34,740 nucleotides of DNA from Bacillus sp. (in: firmicutes) (GTDB lineage Bacteria; Bacillota; Clostridia; Lachnospirales; Lachnospiraceae): NCBI GenBank assembly GCA_023666125.1, contig JAMPCN010000024.1, positions 1 through 34,740 on the forward strand, given 5' to 3'. The translations under genes and the position numbers were made by a program. Below are positions 1,141-20,158 of this stretch, in pieces. Numbering within the stretch: position 1 is the first letter of the stretch; the number at the start of each line of letters is the position of its first letter. The notes beneath the pieces are model-generated. The model worked only from the letters and a program-made list of their open reading frames with translations, had not been told where the DNA came from and ran no database searches.

Positions 1141-2566
1141 AATTTTTAACGCCGTACTTTTGGTTTAACGATTCCATAATGGCTTTGACAATGGACAGCC
1201 CTATTCCGCTTCCGCCATACTGCCTTGTCCTCGCCTTATCCACCTTATAGAATTTCTCCCATAAATGCACAAGGCTTTCTTCCGGTATCGGATTCCCGGT
1301 ATTGAAAACGGAAACTCTGACTTTATTTTCTTCTTTTTGTAATTTTACATCAATAATTTTTTCATGCAGCGCATAGTTAATGGCATTGCTGAAATAATTC
1401 ATAAAAACTTCTTCCACCTTAAATTCGTCCGCCCAGACGTATATCGGCTCGTAATGTTCCATACGGACGGAAATTTCTTTCTGTCTCGTTAAAATCTCTG
1501 ATGACTGAATATAATTTTGAATAAAAGAAACGATATCGAACCGCTCCATCGCCACCGTATCATTGCCAAATTCAAGCTGGTTGAGGGTTAAAAGCTTTTT
1601 TACCATGGTATTCATCTTCGCCGCCTCGTCCATAATAACGTCGCAGTAAAAATCCCTGCTTTCGGCATCCTCGTTAATCCCTTCTTTTAATCCTTCCGCA
1701 TATCCCTGTATCAGCGCAATCGGGGTTTTCAATTCATGCGATACGTTGGAAAGAAATTCTTTCCTCATCTCGTCAATTTCATTTTTCTTTTCAATATCCC
1801 TTTGCAGTTCGTTGTTCGCGCTCTTCAGTTCGGAAATTGTCTTTTCCAAAATACCGGACAATTCATTGATATTATGGCCGAGCAGTGCAATTTCCGTCTT
1901 GCTTTTTCCGCTGTATTTGGCGTCAAAGTCCAGATGTATCATGCGCTCGGATATTTTCGTCAGTTCCATAATCGGTTTCGTTATCTTACCGGACACCCAC
2001 AAAGCCACCAGCGCGCCGACAAAAGCCCCTGCAACGCCCACATATGCCAAAAAGCGGTTGGCAAGTTTAACGCTCTCTTTAATGCTCTCTAACGGATTAC
2101 GGAATAAAAAAAGATTTCCATTGTCCAAAAACCCCCACATTTCCACATATTCCGTCTTTGTCCAGTCATCTAACATAATGCTGATTTCGTATCTTTCACC
2201 TTTCTCCAATACCCGGATGTTAGAAGAGTTTCCATTATCAAATAAATTGTTTAAAAGCCGTTTGCTCAACATTTCATAATCGTTAGCCGATGCCTTTATG
2301 GTCTTCGTTTCCGCATCCAGTATAATAAAGCTGATATTGTACTTTCCGCTTATCTTTTGAAATTCAATGTCAAAATTCTCTGTGCCGATGCTTCCGTCGT
2401 TAGAAGCGGTATTGATATAGTTATAGGCATTCATCAACACATTCTGCTTATTTTTAATATAATAATTTCCCAAAAAAGTATTGTTAATAAACCAGCAAAG
2501 AACTATCGTTCCCGCTATCAGAAAGCAAAAAACACCGGCAAACTGTTTTTTAATGGAATATTTCAT
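1097..2566 (-). CDS. Two-component sensor histidine kinase (HAMP-HisKA-HATPase)
   Basis: 489-residue membrane kinase. Visible in order: TM1 about 10-28, an extracytoplasmic sensor region to about 168, TM2 about 171-191, HAMP about 192-244, coiled linker, HisKA with the phospho-accepting His277 in NVSHELKTP, then HATPase_c with N-box Asn390/Asn394, a degenerate G1 box (NTGNP near 422) and G2 box GGSGIGLS (451-458). It should autophosphorylate and pass phosphate to the OmpR regulator at 3705-4391, which begins the same operon. The ATG lies two bases after the stop of the 77-aa gene, with GAGG at good distance, so translation is probably coupled. The end of the gene is the first unit of a 40-bp tandem array. 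The signal sensed is not evident. Confidence 0.93.
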   Translation of the reverse strand: MKYSIKKQFAGVFCFLIAGTIVLCWFINNTFLGNYYIKNKQNVLMNAYNYINTASNDGSIGTENFDIEFQKISGKYNISFIILDAETKTIKASANDYEMLSKRLLNNLFDNGNSSNIRVLEKGERYEISIMLDDWTKTEYVEMWGFLDNGNLFLFRNPLESIKESVKLANRFLAYVGVAGAFVGALVALWVSGKITKPIMELTKISERMIHLDFDAKYSGKSKTEIALLGHNINELSGILEKTISELKSANNELQRDIEKKNEIDEMRKEFLSNVSHELKTPIALIQGYAEGLKEGINEDAESRDFYCDVIMDEAAKMNTMVKKLLTLNQLEFGNDTVAMERFDIVSFIQNYIQSSEILTRQKEISVRMEHYEPIYVWADEFKVEEVFMNYFSNAINYALHEKIIDVKLQKEENKVRVSVFNTGNPIPEESLVHLWEKFYKVDKARTRQYGGSGIGLSIVKAIMESLNQKYGVKNYDNGVEFWFELELA

Positions 2567-2568
2567 AA

Positions 2569-2802
2569 TCAGTCCTCTAATACGTCAAAAGCGCTGCCCT
2601 TTGCCCATGGACTGCCGATATCGCAGCGGCCATGATGGTACTGCCTTTTGACCTCTCCCTGCATATACTCATCCGACACATCGATTTTTAATCTGCCCGC
2701 ATCAGAGGCGGCAAAATTATCCAGCATGGCAACTATCTGTTCCAGATTTGCATCATCCATATTTTCTACGGCCATATCGGGTCCTTTTTGTTTTCTTTCC
2801 AT
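2569..2802 (-). CDS. Small hypothetical protein, 77 aa, between LRR protein and kinase
   Basis: 77-residue soluble protein, not recognised with confidence. The N-terminal half is acidic and amphipathic (about 12-35); the C-terminal part holds a distinctive HHGRCDIGSPWAKG stretch with the single Cys, and an acidic end. It has no signal peptide or membrane segment. The gene lies 16 bp after the LRR protein gene and 2 bp before the kinase ATG, which argues it is a real member of the regulator-LRR-kinase operon. The acidic leader-like half plus conserved-looking C-terminus recalls a peptide precursor, but no modifying enzyme lies next to it, so that is only a hint. It could instead be an accessory protein of the two-component system or the LRR protein. 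Confidence 0.7.
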   Translation of the reverse strand: MERKQKGPDMAVENMDDANLEQIVAMLDNFAASDAGRLKIDVSDEYMQGEVKRQYHHGRCDIGSPWAKGSAFDVLED

Positions 2803-2818
2803 ACTTTACGCACTCCCT

Positions 2819-3724
2819 TTATGATTCCCATTTTAACGCATCCCATAAGGAATGCGTCTGTTGTTCTCTCTGCCTCTTTTTTAATAGATAAGCTTTTAAC
2901 TCAACATTATCTTCGTCCAAATCATCCAGCGCAGCATTGATATTTTCTTCACAAATGCCGCCGGCTTCATACAAAATATCACAATACATAAGCTGCTCAT
3001 GACGGTGTTCCTTTACCGCTTCCCATGCCGATTCATCACCGCGGCCCTTTGTCCTTTGCAGCAGATATTGTATCAGCGTATGCCGCACATCATCCGCCAT
3101 ATAATCCGGATAGCAAAGACGTAAAAAAGCAATATCCGCCTTTTTCTTTGCCAGTTCTTGTAAGCACATCTCCTGTTTATGCGCCATGTCCTCCTCGGCA
3201 CAGTAAACCAGATTTTTCAATGCGCTCTCCTCGGATTCTTTTAAAACCGTCATGATACGCGCGTCCAGATTCCGATACCAGCTATCGCTTCCTACAAGAA
3301 GCGGCGTAAGCAGGTAGTCCGCCTCCAGCATCGTCACGGCACAAGCTAACAGCCTGTCTGTTTCTTTTCCATTTCCTGCAATGCAGACTTCATATAAACG
3401 CTGCGCTTTTTGGAATACCTGTCTGCCAAAGGCTACCTCTTTTTTCGGAAGCGTTATTTTTTGCAGTTCCCGGCAGCTTAAAAATGCCCAGTCTCCAACC
3501 GTTTCTATTGTATTTGGAAAAATGATATGGTTTATATGCCGATTGCCCAGAAATGCCTTCTTTCCGACTGCTTTCACCGGATAGGAATCTATCCGGGCGG
3601 GAATCATAAGCGTCCGGGCATCGCCCTCATAGGCCGTGATGCAAAGACCCGCATCCAATCCGGCGCCGTTTTCACCGGTATAGTAAAAAACGCCGTCTGC
3701 CGTTTCATATCGCTTCGTTAGCAT
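2819..3724 (-). CDS. Leucine-rich repeat (LRR_5/BspA-like) protein
   Basis: 301-residue protein. Residues about 35-115 carry LRR_5-type repeats (phrases such as VKAVGKKAFLGNRHINHIIF, then IETVGDWAFLSCRELQKITL), the pattern of BspA-like proteins. The remainder (about 120-301) is helical and charged with no signal peptide or membrane segment, so unlike typical BspA adhesins it looks cytoplasmic. I chose ATG at 3724 over the TTG one codon upstream. It overlaps the end of the response-regulator gene by 20 bp, indicating translational coupling. Its place between regulator and kinase suggests a role with that system, perhaps protein-protein contact through the LRR face; that is inference. Confidence 0.82.
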   Translation of the reverse strand: MLTKRYETADGVFYYTGENGAGLDAGLCITAYEGDARTLMIPARIDSYPVKAVGKKAFLGNRHINHIIFPNTIETVGDWAFLSCRELQKITLPKKEVAFGRQVFQKAQRLYEVCIAGNGKETDRLLACAVTMLEADYLLTPLLVGSDSWYRNLDARIMTVLKESEESALKNLVYCAEEDMAHKQEMCLQELAKKKADIAFLRLCYPDYMADDVRHTLIQYLLQRTKGRGDESAWEAVKEHRHEQLMYCDILYEAGGICEENINAALDDLDEDNVELKAYLLKKRQREQQTHSLWDALKWES

Positions 3725-4391
3725 CAAACTTATACCCCATCCCCCAGATTGTCTTAATCAGCTCGCCTTTATCGCCCATTTTACTGCGCAATTTTTTGAC
3801 ATGGGTATCAATCGTCCTGGCATCGCCAAAATAATCATAATTCCAGACACTGTTTAAAATCTTTTCCCTTGAGAGCGCAATTCCCTGATTTTCTATAAAA
3901 TAGGATAACAACTCGAACTCCTTATAGCTTAAATCCACCTGTCTGCCATCTATTGTGACAATATGCGCCGCCTTGTTGATTAAGATGCCGCCCGCCTCCA
4001 AAACCGCATCTTCGCTCGACTGGCCTGTCCTTCTTAAAATCGCTTCCACCCGCGCTACCAGAATCTTCGGACTGAATGGCTTGGAAATATACTCATCGAC
4101 GCCCAGTTCAAACCCTTGCAGTTCATCCCGTTCATCCGCTTTGGCGGTCAACATGATAATCGGCACTTTGGAATAGGCGCGTATTTCCCTGCATACCTGC
4201 CAGCCGTCCAGTTTAGGCATCATCACATCCAGAATCATCAGTTCAATATCGTTCTGGGCAAAAAAAATGTCCAACGCCTGTACTCCGTCTTCGGCTTCTA
4301 ACACTTCGTAATTGTTTTTGACTAGAAAATCCTTTACCAGTTTCCGCATACGGCTTTCATCATCTACAACCAGTATTTTCCGCTTATCCAT
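3705..4391 (-). CDS. OmpR/PhoB-family response regulator
   Basis: 228 residues, full family length. Receiver domain 1-118 shows the acidic pocket (Asp10, Asp11), phospho-acceptor Asp55 in LMILDVMMPK, switch Thr82 and Lys104 in SKPFSP. The C-terminal winged-helix DNA-binding domain (about 130-226) carries the typical recognition region ending DTHVKKLRSKMGD and WGMGYKF. It should act as a transcription factor controlled by the kinase at 1097-2566. It is the first gene of a four-gene run (regulator, LRR protein, 77-aa protein, kinase); the next gene overlaps it by 20 bp. GGAAGG lies about ten bases before ATG. The spacer upstream (4392-4485) has a TATACT-like -10 but no convincing -35. Confidence 0.95.
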   Translation of the reverse strand: MDKRKILVVDDESRMRKLVKDFLVKNNYEVLEAEDGVQALDIFFAQNDIELMILDVMMPKLDGWQVCREIRAYSKVPIIMLTAKADERDELQGFELGVDEYISKPFSPKILVARVEAILRRTGQSSEDAVLEAGGILINKAAHIVTIDGRQVDLSYKEFELLSYFIENQGIALSREKILNSVWNYDYFGDARTIDTHVKKLRSKMGDKGELIKTIWGMGYKFDANEAI

Positions 4392-5542: not shown

Positions 5543-7354
5543 TTATTCTGTTAAAAAAAGCACATAATGATTGGCTTTGATACATTCCGTATATTTTTCT
5601 TCCATTTTCTTCAGATACCGGCTCTCTTTATCGACAAGGATAAATCCTCCCTCCTTTATCACAGGTTCCCATATCGCCTCGTCAGGGCTTTCATCCTTAT
5701 CGCATTTTTCCTCTATGACAACAATCGGCCTTTCTTTTAAGGCAAACTGAAACAGGCCGATATACGCGCTTTTTCTTCCGTTATGCAGATAATAAACGGA
5801 CATGTCTTCTGTATCGTTTTTTCTTTCATAATCTTTGATATATTCATAAATTCTCAGGTTATAACAGGCAAGGTCATTACTGTAATAAATGTATTTCTGA
5901 CTAAGCCTGAGCGCGAGCAAAACCTCCATGAACAACAGCGTGCCTATTATAAAAATATCCTTTTTCCATTTCCTTCCGATAATAATACAGCCCGTCAGGA
6001 TAAGCATTAATAAAATGCCAAATCCATACGCTTTTCCAAATTCCGGTAAAACTTCATAACCATACCGTTCGTTGGAAAGATAATTTAATCCCGCCGCATG
6101 CGTTCCCGTCATCTTATCGCTGCCGCTATGTATCGCCTGCCAAAGCGTCGGTATCCATAAGAGTGTGGAAATACCCGCGTTTTTTAAAAATATCCGAAAG
6201 GGGCATTCGCTTTCTAACATGATAAGCATACCGATACCGATGAATATAGGAATCAGATATTCGTTATATCTGCCGTAAATCATAAAGTCTAACTGTTTTG
6301 CCCCGCTCGTCGCAATGGCCGTAATCAAAAACTGCCCTGCCATGGAAAGCGTCAGAAATATAAAGAAACAGTCTCCCCGAACCGCCCGCTTTATGGAAGC
6401 TGCCGCCGCCGGATAAAACAGACCAAAAGAGGCCATTCCCAGATAATAAAGTTTTCCCTCGCAGCTTTGCAGCAGTTTTAAGATTCCCGTCAGCGTAAAA
6501 ATCTCTTTTAACTGCCCGAAATGCCCTGCGTAATTATTTTTAGCCATTGCTTCCGCATCTGCAAGAACATAGGCCGTATCTTTTATCACGCTTTGTAAAT
6601 AGAAACCGGCCGCCATAGCGGCACAAAAAACCAACAAACCAACCGCTATGCTCTTTCTATATTCCGGTCTTTTCCATCCACAAAAGACGAGAGTCATCAC
6701 CGCCGCAATCACAACGCCCACCGTACGCATATGCACAAAATATAAATAGGCCAGCAGAACTGACAGCATTGTCATTTTTATTATGCCCGGTTTTTCCAGA
6801 AAGCGCAGCAGCAGCCAGCAGATAAAAAGATAGAGAAAACATAAAAGCGCCTCCGCCAACGTTGTCTGCATGTAAAAAGTCCAGACCGGATACAATACCG
6901 CTACGCCGACCGCCGCCGTCAGCTTTCCTGCCTGCTCGTCTTTATCGGCATTTTTTTTAACGTCTCCTTTGAGGTTTTCTTCAGCGTCTTCTATCCCTTG
7001 CAGCTTGATATATATCCTTGTCAAAATACCATGAATAAGGCCGATACCGATACACTGCAATATCATATTAACAGTGACGGCTATCCGGTACGCCTGGACG
7101 GAATCCGCGCTAAAGCGCAGTATCGGCGTTAATATCAGGCTATAGCTGAAAGAATAATACAGTGAACTTGTCGCCATAACGGCTGACCAGTCATATCCGT
7201 TCCATGCCGCTGCGCTTACCCAGTATCCAAATTCATCCGGATATATATGGAACCCGTAGATTCTATAAATACCGCGACAAAAAATGCTGAAAATAAGCGC
7301 AGCAAACAACAGGAAATACATCTTCTCTGCAAACTTAATATTTAATGATTGCAT
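5543..7354 (-). CDS. GT-C-like integral membrane glycosyltransferase (putative)
   Basis: 603-residue polytopic protein with about a dozen hydrophobic segments, starting at residues 13-30. Just after the first segment is YPDEFGYW (Asp40-Glu41), the position and character of the acidic motif in the first extracytoplasmic loop of GT-C enzymes (PMT/ArnT/GT39-like), which use polyprenyl-phosphate sugars. The last ~100 residues form a soluble outer domain. Expected role is transfer of a sugar from a lipid carrier to an exported acceptor. The ATG lies inside the end of the secreted Ser/Glu-rich protein gene (20-bp overlap) with GGGAG upstream, so the two are coupled; that protein is a natural substrate candidate (inference). 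The class is likely; the substrate is not known. Confidence 0.7.
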   Translation of the reverse strand: MQSLNIKFAEKMYFLLFAALIFSIFCRGIYRIYGFHIYPDEFGYWVSAAAWNGYDWSAVMATSSLYYSFSYSLILTPILRFSADSVQAYRIAVTVNMILQCIGIGLIHGILTRIYIKLQGIEDAEENLKGDVKKNADKDEQAGKLTAAVGVAVLYPVWTFYMQTTLAEALLCFLYLFICWLLLRFLEKPGIIKMTMLSVLLAYLYFVHMRTVGVVIAAVMTLVFCGWKRPEYRKSIAVGLLVFCAAMAAGFYLQSVIKDTAYVLADAEAMAKNNYAGHFGQLKEIFTLTGILKLLQSCEGKLYYLGMASFGLFYPAAAASIKRAVRGDCFFIFLTLSMAGQFLITAIATSGAKQLDFMIYGRYNEYLIPIFIGIGMLIMLESECPFRIFLKNAGISTLLWIPTLWQAIHSGSDKMTGTHAAGLNYLSNERYGYEVLPEFGKAYGFGILLMLILTGCIIIGRKWKKDIFIIGTLLFMEVLLALRLSQKYIYYSNDLACYNLRIYEYIKDYERKNDTEDMSVYYLHNGRKSAYIGLFQFALKERPIVVIEEKCDKDESPDEAIWEPVIKEGGFILVDKESRYLKKMEEKYTECIKANHYVLFLTE

Positions 7355-8156
7355 AAGCTCCCTGTCCGCCTGTTGTGTTGAAAGTTACCGTGTCCGGGTT
7401 GTCATCCATATCTTCCAGAATCGTCACCGCGCCGCCCGGACGCACACAGACCATGGCAAAGGTCTTACCGCTTTGCGTAAATGATTTCGGAATGCCGAAT
7501 TTTAACGTAACCTCTGCCCCGTCGGAAGAAAGCAGTTCAAATTTTCCGCCGCCCATCTTGCCTAGTTCCACATTTACATAAGGACCGACGATAGCCCCTA
7601 TCGCCTCCGCGGTCTGATTGATAACGTCTGCGGCCTGGCTGCTTTTTTTCACGTCCATATTATAGATTCTTGCATACGGCTTTTCACCCGGAGAAAGGTC
7701 GTAACTGTCGGCAATATTGGCAAGACTTGTCGTAACTGCCGTGCCGCTTACGCTTGTTGCGACATATACACCGCTTACACTCGACGATACGCCCGCCACC
7801 GTACTGCTATCCGGAATCTCCATAATACTGTTTACCGCTTCGTATCCGCCGCCATCTTCGGACGCGCTGCTTATAGACTGATTAACGGCGTTTAGCACTT
7901 CTTTTTCGGATATGGAACTTATCGTATCGCTTTTACTTTCTTCACTGCTGCTTTCTTCTATACTGCTCTCCTCGACGCTGCTTTCTTCAACGCTGCTCTC
8001 CTCTATACTGCTTTCCTCAGTACTGCTTTCCTCTGCGCTGCTTTCTTCTATACCGTCTCCTCCGTCCGCCTTTACGGTCAGCCGCATGGACGGCATCACA
8101 ATAAGCGCCGCCGCCAGAATCATGACAAACGCCTTTTTTACTACTTTCATTTTCAT
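7335..8156 (-). CDS. Secreted protein with Ser/Glu five-residue repeats
   Basis: 273 residues. Signal peptide about 1-31 (basic start, hydrophobic core, cleavage likely after VKA). Residues about 37-77 are roughly nine tandem copies of a five-residue SSxEE unit, encoded by near-identical 15-bp repeats at 7938-8045. The remainder is Ser/Val-rich then a compact C-terminal domain (about 165-273) with no LPXTG anchor. AAGGAGG precedes the ATG by six bases. The Ser-rich repeat is a plausible site for O-glycosylation, and the next gene, overlapping by 20 bp, encodes a GT-C-like glycosyltransferase. Repeat number is expected to vary between strains because the units are almost identical. I do not recognise the C-terminal domain. 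Confidence 0.85.
   Translation of the reverse strand: MKMKVVKKAFVMILAAALIVMPSMRLTVKADGGDGIEESSAEESSTEESSIEESSVEESSVEESSIEESSSEESKSDTISSISEKEVLNAVNQSISSASEDGGGYEAVNSIMEIPDSSTVAGVSSSVSGVYVATSVSGTAVTTSLANIADSYDLSPGEKPYARIYNMDVKKSSQAADVINQTAEAIGAIVGPYVNVELGKMGGGKFELLSSDGAEVTLKFGIPKSFTQSGKTFAMVCVRPGGAVTILEDMDDNPDTVTFNTTGGQGAYAIIKY
7938..8045 (-). repeat. 15-bp coding tandem repeats (SSxEE)
   Basis: Adjacent near-identical 15-bp units encode the SSxEE repeats of the secreted protein. The fourth codon group varies between Ala, Thr, Ile and Val. The unit keeps the reading frame, so gain or loss of copies would only change repeat length. The antisense strand reads as a Leu/Ser-rich open frame, which is a by-product. 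Confidence 0.85.
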
Positions 8157-8294: not shown

Positions 8295-10559
8295 TCACGC
8301 TTTCTTCTGTTCTATCTTCGTCCGAAGCAGATACCAGAACGCGCCTGCAAGGCAGATAGAGGAATACGTTCCGCAGATGATGCCCGCGATTAGCGGCAAT
8401 GCAAATTCCCTAATAGAAGAAACGCCGAATATCTCCAGAGCCGCCACCATAAAGAACGTCGTTAAGGAAGTAAAGACGCTTCGCGACAACGTCTGGGAAA
8501 TACTTCTGTTGACAACCTCCTCCAAATTATCTTTTCTTCCCATTTCCCGCATATTCTCACGGATACGGTCAAAGATAACGATTGTCGCATTGATGGAATA
8601 ACCTACAATCGTCAACATACAGGCAATAAAGGTATTGCCGACGGATACTCTTGCCACCGCATAAAAAGCAAGCACGACCAGAATATCATGCAACAGCGCG
8701 ATAACCGCGCTTGCGCCGAAACGGATATCCTTAAACCGCAGCCAGATATAAATTAACATACAAACAGTTGCCATTATAATTGCAACTATCGCATCTGATT
8801 TCATTTCCGAACTTACGGTTGCGCTGATTGTTTCCGCGACGATGGAACTTTCCTCCACGCCAAAATTCGTTACCATGACATTGACAAACGTTTCTCTCTC
8901 CGCTACGTCAAGCGTTCTTGTCTTAATGATAATCTGATTGGAACCCGCTACTTTCGTTATCTGTACGTTGCCGTCATTGGTAATATTTTCAATTAACGGA
9001 ACAACCTGCGCGTCAATTTCCTCTATCGCCATATCCGTCGGCATCGTAACCGTTGTAGACGTACCGCCCACAAATTCCAGGCTGTAATTTAACGGCGAAG
9101 AGCCGGACGCCGAATTGACTCCCATCACCACAAGTCCAACGAGTATTACCACTGTGGATATGGCAAAAAAGATTTTCTTTCCGGACAATATCGACAGCGT
9201 CTTTCTTTCCTTTGCCACGCCATATGCCTTAGGCGACTGTACGCCGATTGCAAACAGCGCATTCAACAGGAACTTCGTTATCACAAGCGCAGTAAACATG
9301 GATAAAATAATACCTAACATAAGCGTCTGCGCAAAGCCTTTAATGGTTCCCGTTCCTCTTACCATCAAAACTACCGCGGCAATAAACGTTGTCACGTTTC
9401 CGTCAAAAATAGCGGAAAATGCTTTGGAAAAACCTATCTTAACCGCCGATTGCACCGTCTTTCCCGTCGCCAGTTCTTCCCTGATACGGGCAAATATAAT
9501 CACATTGGCATCCACCGCCATACCGATTGATAAGATAATACCGGCAATACCGGGCAGTGTCAGCGTAATTTCAAAAGCATCCAGTAAAATAATCATAAGC
9601 GCCGTATATAAGCAAAGGGCAAAGCTTGCCGCAATGCCCGGCACATAATAAACGGCAATCATAAAGATAACGACAAGCGCAAATCCGACGGCCGCCGCCA
9701 TTAAACTCGTCCTGATAGCGTCGGAACCAAGCTGCGCGCCTACAACATTAGAACGCAGTTCTTCTAACTCTAATTTCAAGCCGCCGATACGAATGGTAGA
9801 GGCAAGCTGCTGTGCTTCTTCAACGCTGCTTTGTCCGGTAATAATCGCATTACCGTCTGTAATTACCGCCTGTACATTCGGCGCGCTGACAATCTCACCG
9901 TCATAATAAATCGCAATGGTCTCCCCCGCGTTATACGCTTTCTCCGTCGCCTTGGCAAACGCCTCGGTTCCCGCATCCGTTAAGGTAAGCTGCACAACGT
10001 ATTCCGTATTGTTCATCAGGCTGTCCTGCTGCGAACGCGCCTGTGCGCCCGCTACATCCGTACCGGTCAATATAACGGAGCCGTCCGCCATTAATTCATC
10101 GATTGTCTTATTTAACTGGCGCACCGGAATCAGATTACCGTCCGTATCGACGCCGTAACCTGCCGTGTAATTCTCATTACCTTCACTGTCTGTCTGGGAA
10201 ATAAAATATAAGGTTCCCGGCTGTCCTAATTCCTCTAAAATCGCATTGGCGTCGGTAACGCCCGGAATCTCGATATTGATTCTGTTACTGCCTTCCTGAT
10301 AAACCTGCGCTTCCGTACTGTAATTTTGCACACGCTGCTGCAGTTTATAAATAGTATCACTCATATCCTCTTTGTCCGGTGCTTCATCCCCGACAACCTG
10401 ATAGGTGATACTGACGCCTCCCGCAAGGTCAAGCCCCAGATTAATGCTGGAGGCGGAACCTGACTTGTCCGCGCCGACGCCAAAGACTGCAACATATCCC
10501 AATCCGACAAGCGCCAGTACATAAATAATCAGGCTGATAATGGCTCTGCTTTTTTTCAT
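8295..10559 (-). CDS. secDF: Fused protein translocase subunit SecDF
   Basis: 754 residues; SecD and SecF halves joined in one chain. The SecD half has an N-terminal membrane helix (about 5-25), the large P1 exported domain and a five-helix membrane block with the signature GIILSIGMAVDANVIIFARI. The SecF half (about 455-754) has its own exported domain and the signature VGYSINATIVIFDRIREN. SecDF uses the proton-motive force to help pull Sec substrates across the membrane. I chose the ATG at 10559 (MKKSRA) rather than an upstream in-frame start, because GAGGGAG lies just before it and this is the normal SecD N-terminus. It begins 17 bp after the scfB stop, so it is probably in the scfA-scfB transcript; secD/secF beside SCIFF genes is a known arrangement in Clostridia. 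Confidence 0.95.
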   Translation of the reverse strand: MKKSRAIISLIIYVLALVGLGYVAVFGVGADKSGSASSINLGLDLAGGVSITYQVVGDEAPDKEDMSDTIYKLQQRVQNYSTEAQVYQEGSNRINIEIPGVTDANAILEELGQPGTLYFISQTDSEGNENYTAGYGVDTDGNLIPVRQLNKTIDELMADGSVILTGTDVAGAQARSQQDSLMNNTEYVVQLTLTDAGTEAFAKATEKAYNAGETIAIYYDGEIVSAPNVQAVITDGNAIITGQSSVEEAQQLASTIRIGGLKLELEELRSNVVGAQLGSDAIRTSLMAAAVGFALVVIFMIAVYYVPGIAASFALCLYTALMIILLDAFEITLTLPGIAGIILSIGMAVDANVIIFARIREELATGKTVQSAVKIGFSKAFSAIFDGNVTTFIAAVVLMVRGTGTIKGFAQTLMLGIILSMFTALVITKFLLNALFAIGVQSPKAYGVAKERKTLSILSGKKIFFAISTVVILVGLVVMGVNSASGSSPLNYSLEFVGGTSTTVTMPTDMAIEEIDAQVVPLIENITNDGNVQITKVAGSNQIIIKTRTLDVAERETFVNVMVTNFGVEESSIVAETISATVSSEMKSDAIVAIIMATVCMLIYIWLRFKDIRFGASAVIALLHDILVVLAFYAVARVSVGNTFIACMLTIVGYSINATIVIFDRIRENMREMGRKDNLEEVVNRSISQTLSRSVFTSLTTFFMVAALEIFGVSSIREFALPLIAGIICGTYSSICLAGAFWYLLRTKIEQKKA

Positions 10560-10576
10560 TTTCTCCCTCTTCCTTT

Positions 10577-11977
10577 CTAAGCTAATGCCGCTTTTATCAT
10601 AATGGCGCATTCGATACGCTTTCTCTGCAACTGACAGCCAAGGTCGTACACGTCATGGATATTTCCATGAAACTGATAAGAATTAGCAGCACAGCCGCCG
10701 CTGCAATAAAATTTTGCAAAGCAGTTTTTACACTTTTCTTTCGTATATACATTACAATTATGAAAAGTATCTCTAATGTCTGTGCGGGTAATTCCCTCAT
10801 CCACGTTACCCATGAGAAACTTTTCATTGCCGACAAACTGATGGCACGGATAAAAATCGCCCCAGGGCGTAACCGCCAGATACTCCGTTCCCGAACCGCA
10901 CCCCGAAAGTCTTTTGGCCACACATGGCCCGCCCTCTAAATCTATCATAAAATGGAAAAATTGAAAAGCTTTTCCTTCTTTTCTTCTCTTAATATATTCC
11001 AGAGCAAGCTTATCATACTCTTCTAATAACGCGGGAATATCCTCCTCACGAAGCGCATAGTCCTCATTTTCCCCCGCAACGACAGGCTCTACGGAAATCT
11101 GTTTAAAGCCGAGGTCTGCAAGGTGTGCAACGTCTTTTGCAAAATCCTTATTGTATCTTGTAAAAGTTCCCCGCACATAATAATTCATCTGGTTTCTGCT
11201 ATCCGCCGTTTTTTGGAATTTCGGAACAATCTCATCATAGCTTCCCTGCCCGCCACGGTGCGGACGCATCCTATCGTTCACTTCCTTACGCCCGTCTATA
11301 CTTAATACAATATTGCCCATCTCACGGTTTACAAACTCTAAAATCTCGTCATTTAGAAGGATGCCGTTTGTCGTTAATGTAAAACGGAACTTTTTATGCC
11401 TTGCCGCCTCGATGCTTCTGCCGTATTCGACCAGTCTTTTGACAACATCCCAGTTTAGAAGCGGTTCGCCGCCGAAAAAATCCACTTCCAGATTCACTCT
11501 GTTTCCGGAACTGGCTACCAGGAAATCCAACGCTTTTTTACCGACTTCAAAACTCATCAGCGCGCGCCTGCCGTGATATTCCCCCTCTTCGGCGAAACAA
11601 TATTTACAGGCGAGATTGCAGTCATGCGCGATATGCAGGCACAACGCCTTGACAACGGTTTCGCGGTTCGTAAAATCCGCAATATAGTTTTCATAAATAT
11701 CCTCTGTAAAGAGCATGTCCGCTTCTTTTAATTCCAGAATCTCGTCAACCGCTTCCTGAATCGTTTCCTTCGACATCTCCCTTTCTGCAAAAATCTCTTT
11801 TTTTTCATACATCTGCATGATATGGGAAAGCATGTCCTCTTGCCCGGTTATCTGCTCTTCCAACAGTTTTTCCACCACAGGAATCATATCATAAACAATA
11901 TCGTCTACCACATGAACGCTGCCGCTGTTCACATCCAGTACGATATTATAGCCGTTATTTTTATATTGATGTATCAA
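10577..11977 (-). CDS. scfB: SCIFF peptide maturase, radical SAM/SPASM enzyme
   Basis: 466 residues. An N-terminal peptide-recognition-like region (about 1-95) is followed by the radical SAM domain with Cys120, Cys124, Cys127 (HDCNLACKYC) that bind the SAM-cleaving 4Fe-4S cluster. The GGEP motif at 169-172 is typical. The C-terminal SPASM region has Cys352, Cys360, Cys378, Cys416, Cys419, Cys425, Cys429 and Cys448 for auxiliary clusters. Enzymes of this family (TIGR03974) install thioether cross-links between Cys of the SCIFF peptide and other residues, giving ranthipeptides. The start is TTG at 11977, which gives the family-typical MIH(Q/K)..NGYNIVLDVNSG opening; GGAAG lies upstream. The precursor scfA is 291 bp upstream on the same strand; secDF follows after 17 bp. 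Confidence 0.95.
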   Translation of the reverse strand: MIHQYKNNGYNIVLDVNSGSVHVVDDIVYDMIPVVEKLLEEQITGQEDMLSHIMQMYEKKEIFAEREMSKETIQEAVDEILELKEADMLFTEDIYENYIADFTNRETVVKALCLHIAHDCNLACKYCFAEEGEYHGRRALMSFEVGKKALDFLVASSGNRVNLEVDFFGGEPLLNWDVVKRLVEYGRSIEAARHKKFRFTLTTNGILLNDEILEFVNREMGNIVLSIDGRKEVNDRMRPHRGGQGSYDEIVPKFQKTADSRNQMNYYVRGTFTRYNKDFAKDVAHLADLGFKQISVEPVVAGENEDYALREEDIPALLEEYDKLALEYIKRRKEGKAFQFFHFMIDLEGGPCVAKRLSGCGSGTEYLAVTPWGDFYPCHQFVGNEKFLMGNVDEGITRTDIRDTFHNCNVYTKEKCKNCFAKFYCSGGCAANSYQFHGNIHDVYDLGCQLQRKRIECAIMIKAALA

Positions 11978-13011: not shown

Positions 13012-13081
13012 ATAATCATTTCCTGACATACAGGAAATTTTGAGATGATTGATACAGATAAAAAGGAGAGTGAATTTTTCA

Positions 13082-14368
13082 TTGGATACCACCGGTGTCA
13101 TACAACTTATTGCATTATTGATTCTTGTTTTATTATCAGCGTTCTTTTCTTCGGCTGAAACCGCCTTTACCACGGTAAACCAGGTACGTCTGCGTACACT
13201 GGCGCAGGAGGGTTCCAAACGTGCCAGCCGGGTTCTTTCCATCCTTGAACAGTACAGTAAAATGTTAAGCACGATATTAATCGGCAACAATATTGTCAAT
13301 ATCAGCGCTTCTTCCGTGGCAACGACATTTGCCATCAGGACATGGGGCAGCTATATGGTCGGCGTTGTAACGGGCATATTGACGCTTATTATCCTGCTGG
13401 TGGGGGAAATTGTTCCCAAGACATGGGCTATGGTTAATGCGGAACGCATTTCGCTTTTCTACAGCGGCATCATCCGTTCTTTAATGAACCTGCTTACTCC
13501 CGTTATTTTCATTGTTGATAAATTATCGCTTGGCATCATGCGCCTTTTACATATTAACTCAAACGGCAAGGATAACAGCATTTCGGAGAATGAATTAAAA
13601 ACGTATGTCGATGTCAGCCATGAGGGCGGCGCAATCGAATCCGAGGAACGGGAAATGATTTATAACGTATTTGATTTCGGCGACGCCGTTGCCAAGGATA
13701 TTATGGTTCCCAGAATCCATATGACAAGCCTGCCGCTTACCTCCACTTATAAGGAAGTATTATCAACATTCCGCGCCTCTATGTTTACGCGGATTCCTAT
13801 TTATGAAGACGACCCTGATAATATTATCGGCATTATCAATATTAAAGACTTTATTTTGGTAAAAGATACTGAAAAATTCCAGCTAAAAAAAATACTGCGA
13901 AGCGCCTATTATACATATGAATACAAGAAAATCGCCGATTTGATGATGGAGATGCGGGAAAAATCCCATAATATTACGTTCGTACTCAGCGAGTACGGCG
14001 CAACCGTGGGCATGATTACGATGGAGGACTTAATCGAGGAAATTGTCGGTGAAATCCGGGATGAATATGACGAAGATGAAGAGGAATTAATTGTAGAAAC
14101 CGAACCCGGCACATTCCTTGTGGAAGCCGGCATGAAACTGGACGATATCAACGACGCCTTAGAAACGGATTTAAGTTCCGAGGACTTCGATTCCATCGGC
14201 GGTCTGATGATCGAACAGTTAGAGAGGCTTCCGGAAGATAAGGAATGTATCACATTGGAAAACGGTATTTTCATGCAGGCACAGGGCATTGCGAAAAACC
14301 GCATTTTGAAAGTACTGATTACGCTTCCGCCAAAAGATGCCGAAGAGGATACGGAAATTCCTATTTAA
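13082..14368 (+). CDS. CNNM/CBS/CorC_HlyC membrane protein (hemolysin-C family)
   Basis: 428 residues. The N-terminal CNNM (DUF21) membrane domain (about 5-190) includes FFSSAETAFTTVNQ, the family hallmark. Then come paired CBS domains (about 205-335; VPRIHMTSLP..., and LSEYGATVGMITMEDLIEEIVGEI) and the C-terminal CorC_HlyC domain (about 345-425). Family members are linked to magnesium/divalent cation efflux or homeostasis; the old hemolysin label is historical. The best start is TTG at 13082, giving MDTTGVIQL, typical for the family, with GGAGAG 11 bases upstream; earlier in-frame GTG and TTG lack spacing. It has a strong own promoter. Its stop overlaps the end of the convergent hybrid-kinase gene by 8 bp. 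Confidence 0.92.
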   Translation: MDTTGVIQLIALLILVLLSAFFSSAETAFTTVNQVRLRTLAQEGSKRASRVLSILEQYSKMLSTILIGNNIVNISASSVATTFAIRTWGSYMVGVVTGILTLIILLVGEIVPKTWAMVNAERISLFYSGIIRSLMNLLTPVIFIVDKLSLGIMRLLHINSNGKDNSISENELKTYVDVSHEGGAIESEEREMIYNVFDFGDAVAKDIMVPRIHMTSLPLTSTYKEVLSTFRASMFTRIPIYEDDPDNIIGIINIKDFILVKDTEKFQLKKILRSAYYTYEYKKIADLMMEMREKSHNITFVLSEYGATVGMITMEDLIEEIVGEIRDEYDEDEEELIVETEPGTFLVEAGMKLDDINDALETDLSSEDFDSIGGLMIEQLERLPEDKECITLENGIFMQAQGIAKNRILKVLITLPPKDAEEDTEIPI

Positions 14369-16895
14369 GTTCCAGTACCATCAGATAATCTTCTTCCCGC
14401 ACCTTTACCACCTGAAATCCCAGACGTCGGTACAACCGATACGCATAATTGTCTTTATTGACGCTAAGGGAAACTTTTTCATATCCCCGCGCTTTTAAAA
14501 GAACAATCATCGCTTTCATCAGTTTCGTGCCGATTCCCTGTCTACGGTAATTCTTTTTAACGGAAATGGCAAACTCCGGCACGCTGCCGCTGATATTGCC
14601 ATATCCTTTCACATCACCGTCCAAAATACGCGTCCAGGCCGCGCCAATCAGATGCCCTTCAAATTCCGCCACAAGGCATAAATCATCCACCCCGCCGAAA
14701 TCTTCAATATAAATGGCCAGCCCCGGCTGTTCGATAATATCCCTGGACGGCATCTTCTGCCCCTGCGCAACATAGAGCGCATCATAGAGAAAATCATTTA
14801 AGTAAAGATATTCCTCCCGTTTAATCGGACGAACCTCCACTTTCTCTAAACTGACAATCCGCTTATCCTCTTTTAAAAACTGCCGGATAACCTTATATAA
14901 ATGATGGGTATCCAACGGCTTTGGCAGATGGGCATTCATACCGCTCTCCAACGCCCGTTTCCGGTCTTCCTCAAAGGAATTGGCCGAGACGGCAATAATC
15001 GGGATGCCCGACAGCTTTGCGTCTTCCATGGCGCGAATCGCTCTCGTCGCATGATACCCGTCCATAATCGGCATCTGGATATCCATAAGAATCAAATCAT
15101 AATCGCCGGGTTTCGAGTGTTTTACTTTTTCCACCGCAATGCTGCCATCATCAGCCGTATCGACAAGAAATCCCGCGTCTTTTAATACTTCGTTTTCAAT
15201 TTCTAAGTTAATTTCGTTATCATCCACAATCAAAATCCGCTTCGGCCTGGAAAAACCTATCGGTTCATCGCCAAAATCGTTCACATTGGAAGACTCCGCC
15301 CGCATATACAAAGGCAGGGTAACGATAAATTTGCTGCCTCTGCCGACAACGCTCGTCACGTCTATCGTTCCGCCTATCATCTCCACCAGTTTACGCGTAA
15401 TCGTTAAGCCCAGCCCGGTTCCGTGGATGCCGCTGTGGGTCGTATTCTTCTCCCGCTCAAACGGCTCAAAAATATGTTCCAGAAACGCCTCACTGATACC
15501 GATGCCGCTGTCTTCCACAATGAACTGATATGTCACATGACTGCTCTGCTCGCTCTCTTTCTGCGCCTCCATAACAACAATCGTAACCCATCCGCCCTCT
15601 CTCGTATACTTCACGGCATTATCTACCAGATATGTCAAAAGCTGTGTAAGTTTGGCACGGTCGGTAAAAACCATATCATGTTTCAAATTGGATATATCCA
15701 GCGAAAAGGTAATATTCTTTGCGGCCGCCTTGGCAATCATATTCATCTGCACCTGATGCGCAATATCCATCAAGCTGCATTCCGTTTCCTCCACATGCAC
15801 GTTTTCCGATTCCAGTTTGGATATCTCCAATACATCATTCAAAAGCTGTAATAACTGGTCGCTGGAAACGGAAATCATATCTAAATAGGAATTCACCTTT
15901 TCCTCATCCCGTATATGTTTCCTAATCAAAGACGTAAAGCCGACAATCGCATTCATAGGCGTCCTGATATCGTGCGACATATTGGAAAGAAACAGATTTT
16001 TGGCTTTATTGGCCAAAGTCGCTTCATTTAAAGCCGCAGCCAACACGCGCTTTTGCTGCATTTCCTGTATAATCTCATCATCTATATTGCGATATCCCAT
16101 AACAATCTGGGAGATACGCTCTTCACTTCCTACATTGACGATACGAAGCTGTATGTAAGTGACCTTGCCGTTTCTGTATATCCGGTAACTGATATGAAAC
16201 GCTTTATCCTCGGATAGTTTCCGGCGCAAAAAATCGGGATTGGAAATACCCTTTACCAGCTCACGGTCATCCGGATAAACCCATTCCCTAATATAATCCG
16301 CATCAAATCCCGTAAATTCACGCATCATATGTTCTTCGGGAAATGTTTTGGCAAACCGGGAGCTGACGCGGTATGCCTTTATCCGGTTTTTATCCAAATC
16401 CGCATAAAAAATGGACTCATAGTCGATGCTTAACCCCTCTATGACATCCAGACGCCTTAACTGCTCCTGAATTAACTGTTCTTTTTCTTTTTGGTTACGC
16501 TGATTTTTTTCCGTAGCATCGCCTACGAACACATAAAAAATATCCCCCATGCTCTCGCTGCGGACAAAATGTCCATAGTCTTCAATCCAGCGTATCTCTC
16601 CGTCTTTGCGGATAATGCGGTATTCCACATAATCCATATCATACTGGTTATGCGCAATCTGCTCCTTAATACTTAATTCGATTTCATCCAAATCGTCGGG
16701 ATGCACGATACCCCGAAAAGAATTGCCGGTCAGTTCTTTAAATTCCTCCATCGTGTCGCAGGCAAATATCCTAAGCATTGCCTGATTGGCATAAATAAGC
16801 TCTTCCGCTCCATCCGCATGATAGATGAAAAAACCGCCCGGCATCCCATCCATAAAAGGCCTTATCTGTTCCAGTGTATTCTGGTCGATTTTCAT
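14361..16895 (-). CDS. Hybrid histidine kinase with C-terminal GNAT acetyltransferase domain
   Basis: 844 residues, no membrane segment or signal peptide. In order: PAS (about 10-130, with RKDGEIRWIEDYG), second PAS-like domain (about 150-275), HisKA with His308 in NMSHDIRTPMNA, HATPase_c (N-box Asn426, G1 Asp462 EDSGIGIS, G2 GTGLGLTI), a receiver domain (about 552-675; Asp605 in LILMDIQMP, Lys659 in LPKP), then a complete GNAT domain (about 686-844) with the acetyl-CoA loop RRQGIGT (784-790) and the typical NKDNYAYRLYRRLGF end. All catalytic residues look intact. Start is the ATG at 16895 (MKIDQNTLEQ), with GGAAAAG upstream; the open frame extends further but without a good site. It has its own promoter. 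The acetyltransferase substrate is unknown; the fusion is unusual. Confidence 0.93.
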   Translation of the reverse strand: MKIDQNTLEQIRPFMDGMPGGFFIYHADGAEELIYANQAMLRIFACDTMEEFKELTGNSFRGIVHPDDLDEIELSIKEQIAHNQYDMDYVEYRIIRKDGEIRWIEDYGHFVRSESMGDIFYVFVGDATEKNQRNQKEKEQLIQEQLRRLDVIEGLSIDYESIFYADLDKNRIKAYRVSSRFAKTFPEEHMMREFTGFDADYIREWVYPDDRELVKGISNPDFLRRKLSEDKAFHISYRIYRNGKVTYIQLRIVNVGSEERISQIVMGYRNIDDEIIQEMQQKRVLAAALNEATLANKAKNLFLSNMSHDIRTPMNAIVGFTSLIRKHIRDEEKVNSYLDMISVSSDQLLQLLNDVLEISKLESENVHVEETECSLMDIAHQVQMNMIAKAAAKNITFSLDISNLKHDMVFTDRAKLTQLLTYLVDNAVKYTREGGWVTIVVMEAQKESEQSSHVTYQFIVEDSGIGISEAFLEHIFEPFEREKNTTHSGIHGTGLGLTITRKLVEMIGGTIDVTSVVGRGSKFIVTLPLYMRAESSNVNDFGDEPIGFSRPKRILIVDDNEINLEIENEVLKDAGFLVDTADDGSIAVEKVKHSKPGDYDLILMDIQMPIMDGYHATRAIRAMEDAKLSGIPIIAVSANSFEEDRKRALESGMNAHLPKPLDTHHLYKVIRQFLKEDKRIVSLEKVEVRPIKREEYLYLNDFLYDALYVAQGQKMPSRDIIEQPGLAIYIEDFGGVDDLCLVAEFEGHLIGAAWTRILDGDVKGYGNISGSVPEFAISVKKNYRRQGIGTKLMKAMIVLLKARGYEKVSLSVNKDNYAYRLYRRLGFQVVKVREEDYLMVLELK

Positions 16896-17031: not shown

Positions 17032-19476
17032 TCACCATTCAATCACCACTTTAAATAAATCTCCGTCCGTTTCTATCATAAACTTTCCGCCCTGTAGCTG
17101 CGTCAGGTTCTTGGCAATCGCAAGCCCAAGGCCGCTTCCCTCGGTATTTCTGGAGGCGTCCCCCCGTACGAATCTTTCGCTTAAATCTTCGGGGTTTCCG
17201 ACAATCTCCTGCGCGGATATATTTTTCAGTTCAATCCGAATCCCGTCTTTGCGGCTTTTCTCTCTTACTATTTTTTTTGCCACGATAAAGACTCTTGTAT
17301 CCGGCAGGGCGTATTTTAAAATATTGACATATAAATTTTCAAAAATCCGGTAGGTCTTTTGGCTGTCTAAATTTAAAATAATTTTTTCCTCCGGCACATC
17401 GAAACGCACATGCATCCCCATCTGCTTCATCTTATCCTCATATTCTAAATAGACCTGGCGTAACAGATTGCAGATATCCACCGGAACCGGCTCTAAATTC
17501 ACGCTCCCGCTGCTCGTTTTACTGACCTCGAATAAATCCTCAATCAAAACCTTTAACCGCAGCGCCTTACGCTCCAATGTGTTCACATATTCTTTTCTTT
17601 GCTCATCAGTAATATTTTCCTCTTTTAATAAATCCGTATAGGTGATGATTGCCGTAAGCGGCGTCTTTAAATCGTGGGAGACGTTCGTAATTAACTCCGT
17701 TTTCATCCTCTGGCTCTTTACCTCTTCTTCCACCGCTTTTTTAAAACCGTCCTGCACCTTGTAAAGCTCCTCCTTATAGGATTCAAAAATGCCAAAGTCC
17801 TCCTCAAAGTCGTTCTGAAAATCCCCTTCTGCTATGGCGTTTGTCGCCTCCAATAAAAGCGCGTACTGTTCCTGCATTTTATGAATATATTTTTTCAGAA
17901 AATAGTATAGCGCCATCACATAGACCAGTACGCCTATAATCCCGAAATACCAGCACAGACACGCCGTCGCTAACAGACAGAAACTAATAAAAAGAAGCTT
18001 GCGTAACAGCTCGTTCATATCCTTTCCCAAATCGACGTCCAGAACTTCCGCCTTATACTTGCGGTATATCCTTTTGCCGACATCGCAGATTTTCGCGCCC
18101 ATTCGATAAAGAAGGCTTCTTTTTCGTATATAATCTTTTAGTCCGTACACGATATCTGAAAATTCCAGGCAAACAAAATACCAGGCTCCGAATAAAGCCA
18201 CAAAAAAGGCAAAACAGACGCTGTTTTTAATGATTTCATACTCCTGTCCGTCGCTTAACGTAACCGGGAAATTCTCATTCAGCCATTCCAGAATGCCGTA
18301 ATTTTCTATACTGGAAACAAAAGCCAAAATCACTTCGCCGCCGACAACAAAGAGGATAAAAGCCGCTATGGCCGCAATGACTTCAATCGGCGCTTTTCTT
18401 TCCCTTTTTCCTCTAAGCAGACGCGGCATACACAGGGCAAGAAACATCACCAGCGCGAAAATAACGGCTAAAAACAGCAGCCAGACTCTTATAATTCCCG
18501 CCTGCGCATAGCTGTAAATCAGCGAAACCGGAACGGAACTATCATTCGTGCTTGGAAAACCGCCGGCATAGCCATTATTTTTTATCATATTCATCTGCTC
18601 TTTTGTCATCGCATAGATAAAAACGGCGTCCATGGGTTTTTTCTGCCGCAAGGTAAGCAGTTTTTCCACATTATCCTTACCCACATAATAAAAGGCGTAT
18701 GTCTCCTGCGCCTTTCGTCCGCTTAACAGATAGCCGTACTGCGAGCGTTCTGTGGCCTGCAGCGTTTTCAGCAGTTTATCGGCGTCCTGCCCTTTGACGC
18801 CAAGCGCCTGAAAATTACCCGCCTCGTCATAGTCCATGATAAGATAGTATTCATACATATCCTCCATGTGCGCTTTCTCTTCCACATTTCCGGCGGATAG
18901 CAGGTTCTCTATCGGACGCGTGGTATTTTTGATTTCCGTCTGTGTCTTTTTATCAAGCACATAGTAATCCATGCTATCCTCAATATCCGTCAGAAGGGAA
19001 TGCTGAATTTCCCATGCCATCTCTTCCATTTGGTTTACATAAATCTCCAAAACGCTCTGGAACTGCTCTGCGTTCAAAAAACTGGCATTTTTCAACGCAG
19101 CATTTTCCAACAGAGAGTTTTTCTTTTCCGCCTGTTCGACTGCGGGCGTATTGCTATCCAGTCCACTGTCCGATTCCAATTCTTTTTCCAGATACAGTTC
19201 CTCATAAGAATAGGTTTTGGAACCGCTTTTATCCAATACCTCCTTATAAAGCCCGTAATTGCCGCGTATTAACGCGCTGACAAACTCCTCGTTTTCCATG
19301 CTGACGCGGCCCGCCGTTTCATAATATTGCTGCGCCTTTTTATGAAACTCGGGCATTAACGCAGTAAAAAGCGCCGCCGCCGCAAATGCAATCGCAATCC
19401 CTGTCCATTTCGCGCCGTTTCCTCTTCTTTTTTTATCTTCATTATCTTGATTACCATTTTTCAATTTTGTATCCAA
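17032..19476 (-). CDS. Large multi-pass sensor histidine kinase
   Basis: 814 residues. A first membrane helix near 25-42 is followed by a large extracytoplasmic domain (about 45-328), then a block of further helices (about 330-352, 364-388, 412-435 and two at 490-525), a linker and the kinase core: HisKA His601 in NVSHDLKTPLTA, N-box near Asn714/Asn718, and G2 GSGLGLAIAKN near 780-790. The G1 box is degenerate (KNISAQE), a feature seen in a subgroup of Firmicutes kinases with otherwise normal activity. It pairs with the OmpR regulator whose gene overlaps its start by 26 bp. The only reasonable start is TTG at 19476, inside the regulator gene; no ATG follows for over 40 codons. Signal unknown. 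Confidence 0.92.
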   Translation of the reverse strand: MDTKLKNGNQDNEDKKRRGNGAKWTGIAIAFAAAALFTALMPEFHKKAQQYYETAGRVSMENEEFVSALIRGNYGLYKEVLDKSGSKTYSYEELYLEKELESDSGLDSNTPAVEQAEKKNSLLENAALKNASFLNAEQFQSVLEIYVNQMEEMAWEIQHSLLTDIEDSMDYYVLDKKTQTEIKNTTRPIENLLSAGNVEEKAHMEDMYEYYLIMDYDEAGNFQALGVKGQDADKLLKTLQATERSQYGYLLSGRKAQETYAFYYVGKDNVEKLLTLRQKKPMDAVFIYAMTKEQMNMIKNNGYAGGFPSTNDSSVPVSLIYSYAQAGIIRVWLLFLAVIFALVMFLALCMPRLLRGKRERKAPIEVIAAIAAFILFVVGGEVILAFVSSIENYGILEWLNENFPVTLSDGQEYEIIKNSVCFAFFVALFGAWYFVCLEFSDIVYGLKDYIRKRSLLYRMGAKICDVGKRIYRKYKAEVLDVDLGKDMNELLRKLLFISFCLLATACLCWYFGIIGVLVYVMALYYFLKKYIHKMQEQYALLLEATNAIAEGDFQNDFEEDFGIFESYKEELYKVQDGFKKAVEEEVKSQRMKTELITNVSHDLKTPLTAIITYTDLLKEENITDEQRKEYVNTLERKALRLKVLIEDLFEVSKTSSGSVNLEPVPVDICNLLRQVYLEYEDKMKQMGMHVRFDVPEEKIILNLDSQKTYRIFENLYVNILKYALPDTRVFIVAKKIVREKSRKDGIRIELKNISAQEIVGNPEDLSERFVRGDASRNTEGSGLGLAIAKNLTQLQGGKFMIETDGDLFKVVIEW

Positions 19477-20158
19477 CGCCCCACACCACCTTTAAATATT
19501 TTGGTTCTTTCGGGTTGATTTCTATTTTTTCCCGAATCCTCCTAATATGCACCATAATCGTATCCGTATTGATTGCCTGCTCGTTCCAGACGCGTTCGTA
19601 AATCTCCTCCGCCGAAAAGACCCTGCCCGGACTTTTCATAAGCAGTAAAAGAATCTTAAATTCCAACGGCGTCAGCTTAACCGGAGCGCCGTCTACCGTC
19701 ACTTCCACGGTCTCCTCGTTTAATTCCAGACCGCCTATCACATAGACCTTATCATTTTTCTGTCCGCCGTCCACCGCGTCTAAATATTTCCTATAACGGC
19801 GCAGATGGGAATTGACCCTTGCTAAAAGCTCCATCGTCGTAAAGGGTTTCGTCACATAGTCGTCGGCTCCCATATTCAGCCCCATAATTTTATCCACTTC
19901 CTCGGATTTTGCGGAAAGCATGATAACCGGAAAGTCATATCCTCTCTCCCTGACTTTCATCATCATGGTAATGCCGTCCATACGGGGCATCATCACGTCC
20001 ACGATAGCAAGATGTATCTGTTTTGTTTCTATCTGTTCAAGCCCCTCTATGCCGTCCGCTGCCAGAGATACCTGATATCCCTGATTTTTCAGATATATTT
20101 CAATCCCTTCCCGGATTTCCTTATCATCTTCCACAATTAAAATATGAAACGCCTCCAA
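19451..20158 (-). CDS. OmpR/PhoB-family response regulator
   Basis: 235 residues, normal length. Receiver domain about 1-120 with Asp11/Asp12, phospho-acceptor Asp54 in AIVDVMMPRM, Ser82 at the switch position and Lys104 in TKPF. The winged-helix DNA-binding domain spans about 135-233 (PLEFKILLLLMKSPGRVFS, then MVHIRRIREKI and WGVGYKIEKW). The start is TTG at 20158, supported by AGGAGG nine bases upstream and the normal receiver N-terminus. The kinase gene begins inside its last codons. A weak promoter candidate (TTGATT, 16 bp, TACAAA; 20186-20213) lies just before. It should control genes in response to the kinase at 17032-19476. Confidence 0.95.
   Translation of the reverse strand: MEAFHILIVEDDKEIREGIEIYLKNQGYQVSLAADGIEGLEQIETKQIHLAIVDVMMPRMDGITMMMKVRERGYDFPVIMLSAKSEEVDKIMGLNMGADDYVTKPFTTMELLARVNSHLRRYRKYLDAVDGGQKNDKVYVIGGLELNEETVEVTVDGAPVKLTPLEFKILLLLMKSPGRVFSAEEIYERVWNEQAINTDTIMVHIRRIREKIEINPKEPKYLKVVWGVGYKIEKW

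Follow-up and report, generated by a model that had tools for sequence, protein, structure and literature searches.

Can the receiver of a hybrid histidine kinase govern an acetyltransferase that is joined to it in a single polypeptide? The question is raised by a gene on contig JAMPCN010000024.1 of Bacillus sp. (family Lachnospiraceae in GTDB; GenBank GCA_023666125.1, a draft genome of 138 contigs). The entire contig, a stretch of 34,740 nucleotides hereafter called the window, was analysed. The gene is predicted to encode a protein of 844 amino acids (aa) which combines a sensory region, a histidine kinase core, a receiver (REC) and a C-terminal GNAT acetyltransferase domain.

The fusion gene and its distribution

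The frame was found to run uninterrupted, with no internal stop, from position 16895 to 14361 on the minus strand; an earlier note on this DNA, made from the sequence alone, had located it correctly and left the strand unstated (the plus-strand frame over the same positions has many stops). An in-frame TTG 12 bases 5' of the ATG is an alternative start, and the orthologue in genome G006 reads likewise. Five domains were called by Pfam, all above cut-offs: PAS_3 (residues 34-115), HisKA (298-364), HATPase_c (412-529), Response_reg (554-670) and Acetyltransf_1 (729-827), the last at 57.7 bits against a cut-off of 20.7, which places the C-terminal domain in the GNAT superfamily. The order PAS-PAS-HisKA-HATPase-REC-GNAT proposed in that note was thus borne out as a single frame, except for its second PAS domain. 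No Pfam PAS match was obtained at E 0.1 for the region of about residues 143-274 in eight homologues, and a profile comparison with the first PAS domain gave a probability of only 41%; the "PAS-PAS" region is therefore best described, from these comparisons, as one PAS domain plus a PAS-like stretch.

Direct residue checks confirmed His308 (in NMSHDIRT), Asp605 (in ILMDIQM), Lys659 (in HLPKPLD) and RRQGIGT (784-790), intact and at the positions previously given for them, with DD558-559, S637, N426 and the G boxes also in place. The kinase and receiver residues checked were invariant across eight aligned rows, the window's included. One chain carries the HisKA histidine, the HATPase asparagine and G boxes and the REC aspartate of a hybrid histidine kinase, and an enzyme domain follows REC directly, as in response regulators with enzymatic output. 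The acetyl-CoA loop of GNAT enzymes has the motif Q/R-x-x-G-x-G/A; it is represented here by R784-R-Q-G-I-G789, and Q/R-x-x-G-x-G fits in all five fusions described below.

It had been considered that the fusion might occur in this assembly only, but with the GNAT part as query it was identified in 5 of 77 genomes of the genus (G000, G006, G017, G078 and G079), in frames of 869-931 aa. Identity to the window protein was 91% for G006, 70% for G078 (whose row lacks the N-terminus) and 63% for both G079 and G017. The gene order OmpR-type regulator, kinase of approximately 800 aa, hybrid kinase-GNAT was the same in all five carriers. Pairwise comparison of the window with G006 gave omega values of 0.061 for the PAS region, 0.067 for the kinase, 0.004 for REC and 0.247 for GNAT (95% range 0.150-0.386); as these are well below 1 throughout, every domain is under purifying selection. 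An assembly misjoin or a lost stop codon might be suspected from the draft state of the window genome, and from the fact that the other four carriers are metagenome assemblies with the common isolate prefix NALB (L101, L105, L113 and L114), probably from one sequencing project. Such an origin is nonetheless extremely improbable, because four further species, 63-91% identical to the window, share the frame, junction and gene order on different contigs, and because of the purifying selection on all domains; the sequences and contigs of the four NALB carriers also differ from one another. The recurrence in four further species likewise rules out chance.

The GNAT subfamily was detected in 96 of 397 genomes sampled from the family, where, among the matches listed, the window's alone lay in a frame longer than 500 aa; a Pfam scan of all 16 other listed frames of 280 aa or more revealed no receiver. 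In 295 genomes of the order (at most seven candidates scored per genome, spans counted by hand) the window's was the only open-frame match to REC plus GNAT among the matches listed, those in G694, G718 and G047 crossing the REC-GNAT boundary only through stop codons. The phylum sample of 398 genomes yielded the GNAT in 21, in frames of 161-274 aa in all but the window's among the matches listed; partner domains were not looked for in the two longest of these frames (247 and 274 aa). The rarity of REC-GNAT holds for this GNAT subfamily only, receiver fusions with other GNAT subfamilies not having been searched for. An apparent second GNAT-kinase type in G034 (match 267-830) was rejected as a spurious extension when the frame was read and contained no GNAT. 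Plasmid sequences gave four distant matches only. Phage records with a match numbered 39, none covering 80% of REC-GNAT, and the single GNAT-only match among the best ten of these was 45% identical; 13 loci were matched in IMG/VR, ten of them near-full-length GNATs. A defence-system scan with PADLOC returned only two weak generic matches, to the kinase and receiver parts.

Coupling of the acetyltransferase to the receiver

We tentatively favour, at somewhat less than an even chance, a reading in which the GNAT serves as a REC-linked acetyltransferase output acting on small molecules over one in which it is an uncoupled passenger. On this reading the hybrid histidine kinase, whose gene lies behind those of a membrane kinase and its OmpR-type regulator, would be a soluble protein that has captured a promiscuous GNAT as its C-terminal output. 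The PAS region would sense an intracellular cue, His308 would be autophosphorylated and its phosphoryl group passed to Asp605, and the ensuing change in the receiver would reach the GNAT via a short linker of one length. The GNAT would then N-acetylate not a protein but a small compound that bears an amine and is xenobiotic or antibiotic-like. The fuller proposal, a one-protein stimulus-to-chemistry device in which the receiver of a His-Asp relay switches the acetyltransferase on or off, is possible but on balance doubtful. In this view one genus would have recruited, as a general-purpose N-acetylation add-on, the promiscuous GNAT which related bacteria attach to thiouracil desulfurase, hydrolases, nucleotidyltransferases and YjbR proteins.

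The proposal that the receiver acts on the GNAT draws on the recurrence of the fusion and its gene order in five genomes, on the retention of all kinase, receiver and acetyl-CoA residues checked, on the almost unchanging REC and the purifying selection on the GNAT, and on the REC-GNAT linker, which has one length in 5/5 fusions, while the stretch between the PAS domain and the PAS-like region ranges over 22-54 residues in seven orthologues. The distribution of the GNAT itself bears on the same question. Strong matches (E ≤3.6e-39) were obtained in 28 other genomes of the genus, in frames of 156-230 aa in 27 of them and of 417 aa in G076, where the partner is a Cof-type HAD. The stand-alone members (profile A1; the 156-230 aa frames, without a partner) are 44-51% identical to the window domain and have the same motifs. 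Further partners recognised by Pfam were YjbR, DNA_alkylation/HEAT, alpha/beta hydrolase, 2-thiouracil desulfurase, CN hydrolase, AadA-type nucleotidyltransferase, HAD_2, Flavodoxin_2 and a second GNAT, giving ten families (nine if both HAD types are merged), besides a P-loop-like partner with no Pfam match and one fusion (L135) with no recognised partner. The GNAT was joined at either end of its partners. A hand count in the family sample placed 17 of 87 near-full-length matches, the window's included, in frames of at least 280 aa, among the matches listed. Around the stand-alone GNATs no neighbour family besides GNAT itself occurred in more than 5 of 21 loci.

A GNAT tree of 95 rows placed the kinase-fused GNATs inside a 14-row clade (support 100/97) which also holds YjbR-type (5; L102 and L140 by Pfam, the other three by likeness), alpha/beta hydrolase (2) and HEAT (1) fusions and one stand-alone row; the kinase-fused GNATs lie on one side of a branch with support of only 43/36. 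The tree set had been deliberately enriched in long frames, and duplicate locus copies and rows with fewer than 140 profile positions (e.g. the truncated frames L108, L110, L125 and L127) were dropped; the L102 receiver, being misaligned, was removed from the alignment, and P0002 was N-terminally short in alignment A2 and in one tree. The YjbR, hydrolase and HEAT/DNA-alkylation fusions share the GNAT clade and its C-terminal position with the kinase fusions, and differ in having neither kinase nor receiver. Four extra residues before KGYG/YG are found in the fused clade and in Acetivibrio and Bacteroidota relatives, the latter having been retrieved with a pattern that includes KGYG, and are lacking in 17 aligned rows that are not kinase fusions (one being HAD-fused). 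On this sequence evidence the subfamily is a promiscuous module.

Some of these fusions were noted for themselves. YjbR-type GNAT fusions recur in several genomes (L102, L103, L109, L111, L140 and others), and a short "TADE/AADE"-like stretch precedes the GNAT at many of their junctions and also in the HEAT-GNAT fusion L104. The kinase adjoining YjbR-GNAT in L102 was considered as a source of the fusion and set aside, since this hybrid kinase is of another kind, having two receivers (by eye), and its likeness is generic. In two other genomes of the family a GNAT of the same subfamily stands in front of an AadA-type nucleotidyltransferase-like domain (AadA_C, NTP_transf_2; L136:2639-3874, plus strand, and L139:1517-2752, minus strand); the L136 protein does not reach the NCBIfam cut-off of any named resistance family.

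Orthologous loci with and without the GNAT were compared by means of the membrane kinase, so termed from its hydrophobic stretches (by eye). Of the 77 genomes of the genus, 34 gave matches to its sensor part, 12 of them strong (at least 40% identity, E <1e-60). Five of the 12 strong loci hold the hybrid kinase with GNAT. No hybrid kinase was seen in the fetched flank of G007 (by reading) or found in those of G011, G021 and G068 (tblastn), the G011 contig ending about 1.6 kb on, and in G004 the contig ends within 0.8 kb of the locus. Orthologues lacking the GNAT were found in G091, where the protein stops directly after the last receiver helix, and in G008, where the tail (L055:7348-7410, minus strand) continues in ungapped alignment into the first strand of the GNAT and then stops. 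That tail may be a remnant of a lost GNAT; tblastn detected no residual GNAT at the G008 locus. The membrane-kinase tree rejected the five GNAT-bearing genomes as one clade (approximately unbiased test, P = 0.0002), which favours either two gains or an old fusion with later loss from G008 and G091. Such a clade was not rejected by the hybrid-kinase tree (P = 0.20), and together the trees do not settle the history.

As regards the substrate, the GNAT part matched 24 named NCBIfam acetyltransferase families (RimI, AAC, MshD and others), none over its cut-off, the best being RimI at 48.3 bits against 86.4. Solved structures found by profile (best E 1.7e-9) were a mix of small-molecule and N-terminal protein acetyltransferases. 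Domains joined to GNATs of the subfamily include AadA-like, 2-thiouracil desulfurase, CN hydrolase, alpha/beta hydrolase and flavodoxin-fold proteins, and a distant plasmid relative (35% identity) lies near a MATE exporter and an aminoglycoside phosphotransferase-family gene; because of these partners and neighbours the assignment leans towards a small-molecule substrate.

A number of observations weigh against a small-molecule output under receiver control. The HATPase-REC linker is also near-constant (24-25 residues in seven orthologues), so that constancy does not set the REC-GNAT linker apart, and the fusion is present in only three separate lineages, so that the linker argument rests on few events. 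The GNAT changes faster than REC, with identities to G006 of 77% and 99%, respectively. In G008 and G091 the orthologous hybrid kinases, in the same putative operon, end after REC. The 14-row GNAT clade that contains the kinase fusions has also been joined to YjbR, alpha/beta hydrolase and HEAT/DNA-alkylation-type proteins without a receiver; since one clade holds all of these as well as a stand-alone row, partners have been exchanged within it and the GNAT can do without a receiver. A stand-alone HPt protein of 117 aa is encoded in the same genome (L210:272-625) and could take the phosphoryl group of the receiver. Many of the profile-matched structures are protein N-terminal acetyltransferases, which disfavours a small-molecule substrate.

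It is a serious possibility, if not the one we would choose, that the GNAT is an uncoupled passenger, an independently folding domain joined by gene fusion, made together with the kinase and active irrespective of phosphorylation. Its occurrence alone and with ten other partner families, the share of long frames in the family count, the two kinases without it and its faster evolution all suit this explanation, against which stand the retention of the fusion over about 37% protein divergence with the junction length unchanged in all five proteins, and the purifying selection on the GNAT. Unlikely, by comparison, is a phosphorelay in which the receiver passes its phosphoryl group through an HPt to another regulator and the GNAT is a passenger or a modulator of the relay, for instance by acetylating a component. 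Although the 117-aa HPt, the retention of the whole kinase and receiver in the GNAT-less orthologues and the standing of the receiver as the part most conserved towards G006 would agree with it, no HPt match was found on the window's contig and no HPt was tied to this kinase, and most of the HPt matches listed (seven genomes) lie in frames of 658-1091 aa, with five in frames of 120-294 aa. Receiver control of the GNAT is thus plausible but unproven, and is weakened by the modular habit of the GNAT.

Surroundings of the gene

The features of the conserved trio, whose genes are presumably co-transcribed, are given in Table 1. At all eight loci tested a GT4-type glycosyltransferase gene was found upstream of the trio or pair, and at six of them a VTT-domain gene, which we take to be DedA-like; because these two genes lie upstream of the trio in several relatives, a link of the system to envelope stress may be suspected. 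Telling against this link, the window and G006 lack both genes beside the trio, and in the window an SseB-domain gene is found there instead. The hybrid kinase gene is preceded by a gap of 136 bases which may hold a promoter of its own: TTGCGC-18-TATACT was seen there by eye, but it was not reported by a promoter scan, which gave fewer promoter-like sites than in shuffled sequences. The DNA of the five junctions was inspected for an internal start that would yield a separate GNAT product, and nothing convincing was seen.

Table 1. Features of the fusion gene and of the two genes upstream of it (positions in the window)
Feature	Position	Strand	Details and basis
Hybrid histidine kinase-GNAT gene P0001, 844 aa	14361..16895	-	ATG at 16895, stop 14361-14363
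PAS domain, residues 11-130	16506..16865	-	Pfam PAS_3 match, residues 34-115
PAS-like stretch, residues 143-274	16074..16469	-	No Pfam call; weak evidence
HisKA, residues 298-364	15804..16004	-	Phospho-acceptor His308; Pfam, alignment, residue check
HATPase_c, residues 412-529	15309..15662	-	N426, DxGxG 462-466, GTGLG 492-496; Pfam, alignment, residue check
Receiver (Response_reg), residues 554-670	14886..15236	-	Asp605, DD558-559, Ser637, Lys659; Pfam, alignment, residue check
End of last REC helix and linker to GNAT, residues 671-685	14841..14885	-	Length unchanged in 5/5 fusions
GNAT, residues 686-844	14364..14840	-	Acetyl-CoA loop RRQGIGT 784-790; NYAYRLYRRLGF 816-827; Pfam, alignment, residue check
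Second histidine kinase, 814 aa, next gene upstream	17032..19476	-	HisKA 591-656, HATPase 704-802
OmpR-type response regulator (REC + Trans_reg_C), first gene of the conserved trio	19451..20158	-	Domain match

Other genes of the window were noted in passing. A CNNM/CBS/CorC_HlyC transporter-like gene (13049-14368, plus strand) is convergent with the kinase-GNAT gene, and the 3' ends of the two share 8 bases. A SCIFF six-cysteine peptide (TIGR03973; 12269-12415) and its thioether maturase (TIGR03974; 10577-11977) are encoded on the minus strand, next to a fused SecDF gene (8295-10610). A minus-strand gene at 7335-8156 has a 273-aa product in which EESS(V/I) runs are repeated close to the N-terminus. 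The region 1097-4391, also on the minus strand, encodes another kinase (489 aa; HisKA and HATPase by Pfam) and a 228-aa protein like an OmpR-type regulator (by eye), with a gene for a 302-aa protein between them.

Relation to known systems and significance

Receivers attached to metabolic enzymes, each within a narrow lineage such as a family or a single genus, have already been described (PMC5847659, which names KaiC-like, glycosyltransferase, thioredoxin reductase and PPDK outputs in archaea); the words "GNAT" and "acetyltransferase" are absent from its main text. The protein studied here shares with these a REC joined to a metabolic-type enzyme and a narrow distribution, and differs in that its output is a GNAT and its receiver belongs to a hybrid kinase. 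In type III GNATs, acetyltransferases are controlled by a fused cAMP, ACT or NADP domain (PMC8556138; PMC6434083). A sensory domain before a C-terminal GNAT in one chain is common to both, as would be allosteric control; in type III GNATs the regulator binds a ligand and the targets are protein lysines, whereas the regulator here would be a phosphorylated receiver. Pfam found no N-terminal cAMP, ACT or NADP domain in the 844-aa protein, and "receiver" and "histidine kinase" do not occur in the portion of PMC8556138 covered. With hybrid kinases of the TorS/BarA/ArcB type the HisKA-HATPase-REC core is shared (partial NCBIfam matches), but the best 25 NCBIfam matches are all below curated cut-offs, no HPt was called in the chain and the GNAT is additional. 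No paper describing a receiver-GNAT protein was found by title or start of abstract in the open-licence literature; subscription journals lie mostly outside that search, and absence from print is not implied.

Should the receiver indeed gate the GNAT, two-component signalling would have a direct route to acetylation chemistry that bypasses changes in gene expression. The orthologues with and without GNAT behind the same gene pair form a natural set which makes such gating testable. Apart from this question, the GNAT subfamily, joined to at least ten unrelated partners, usefully illustrates the spread of an enzyme module by gene fusion in the Lachnospiraceae.

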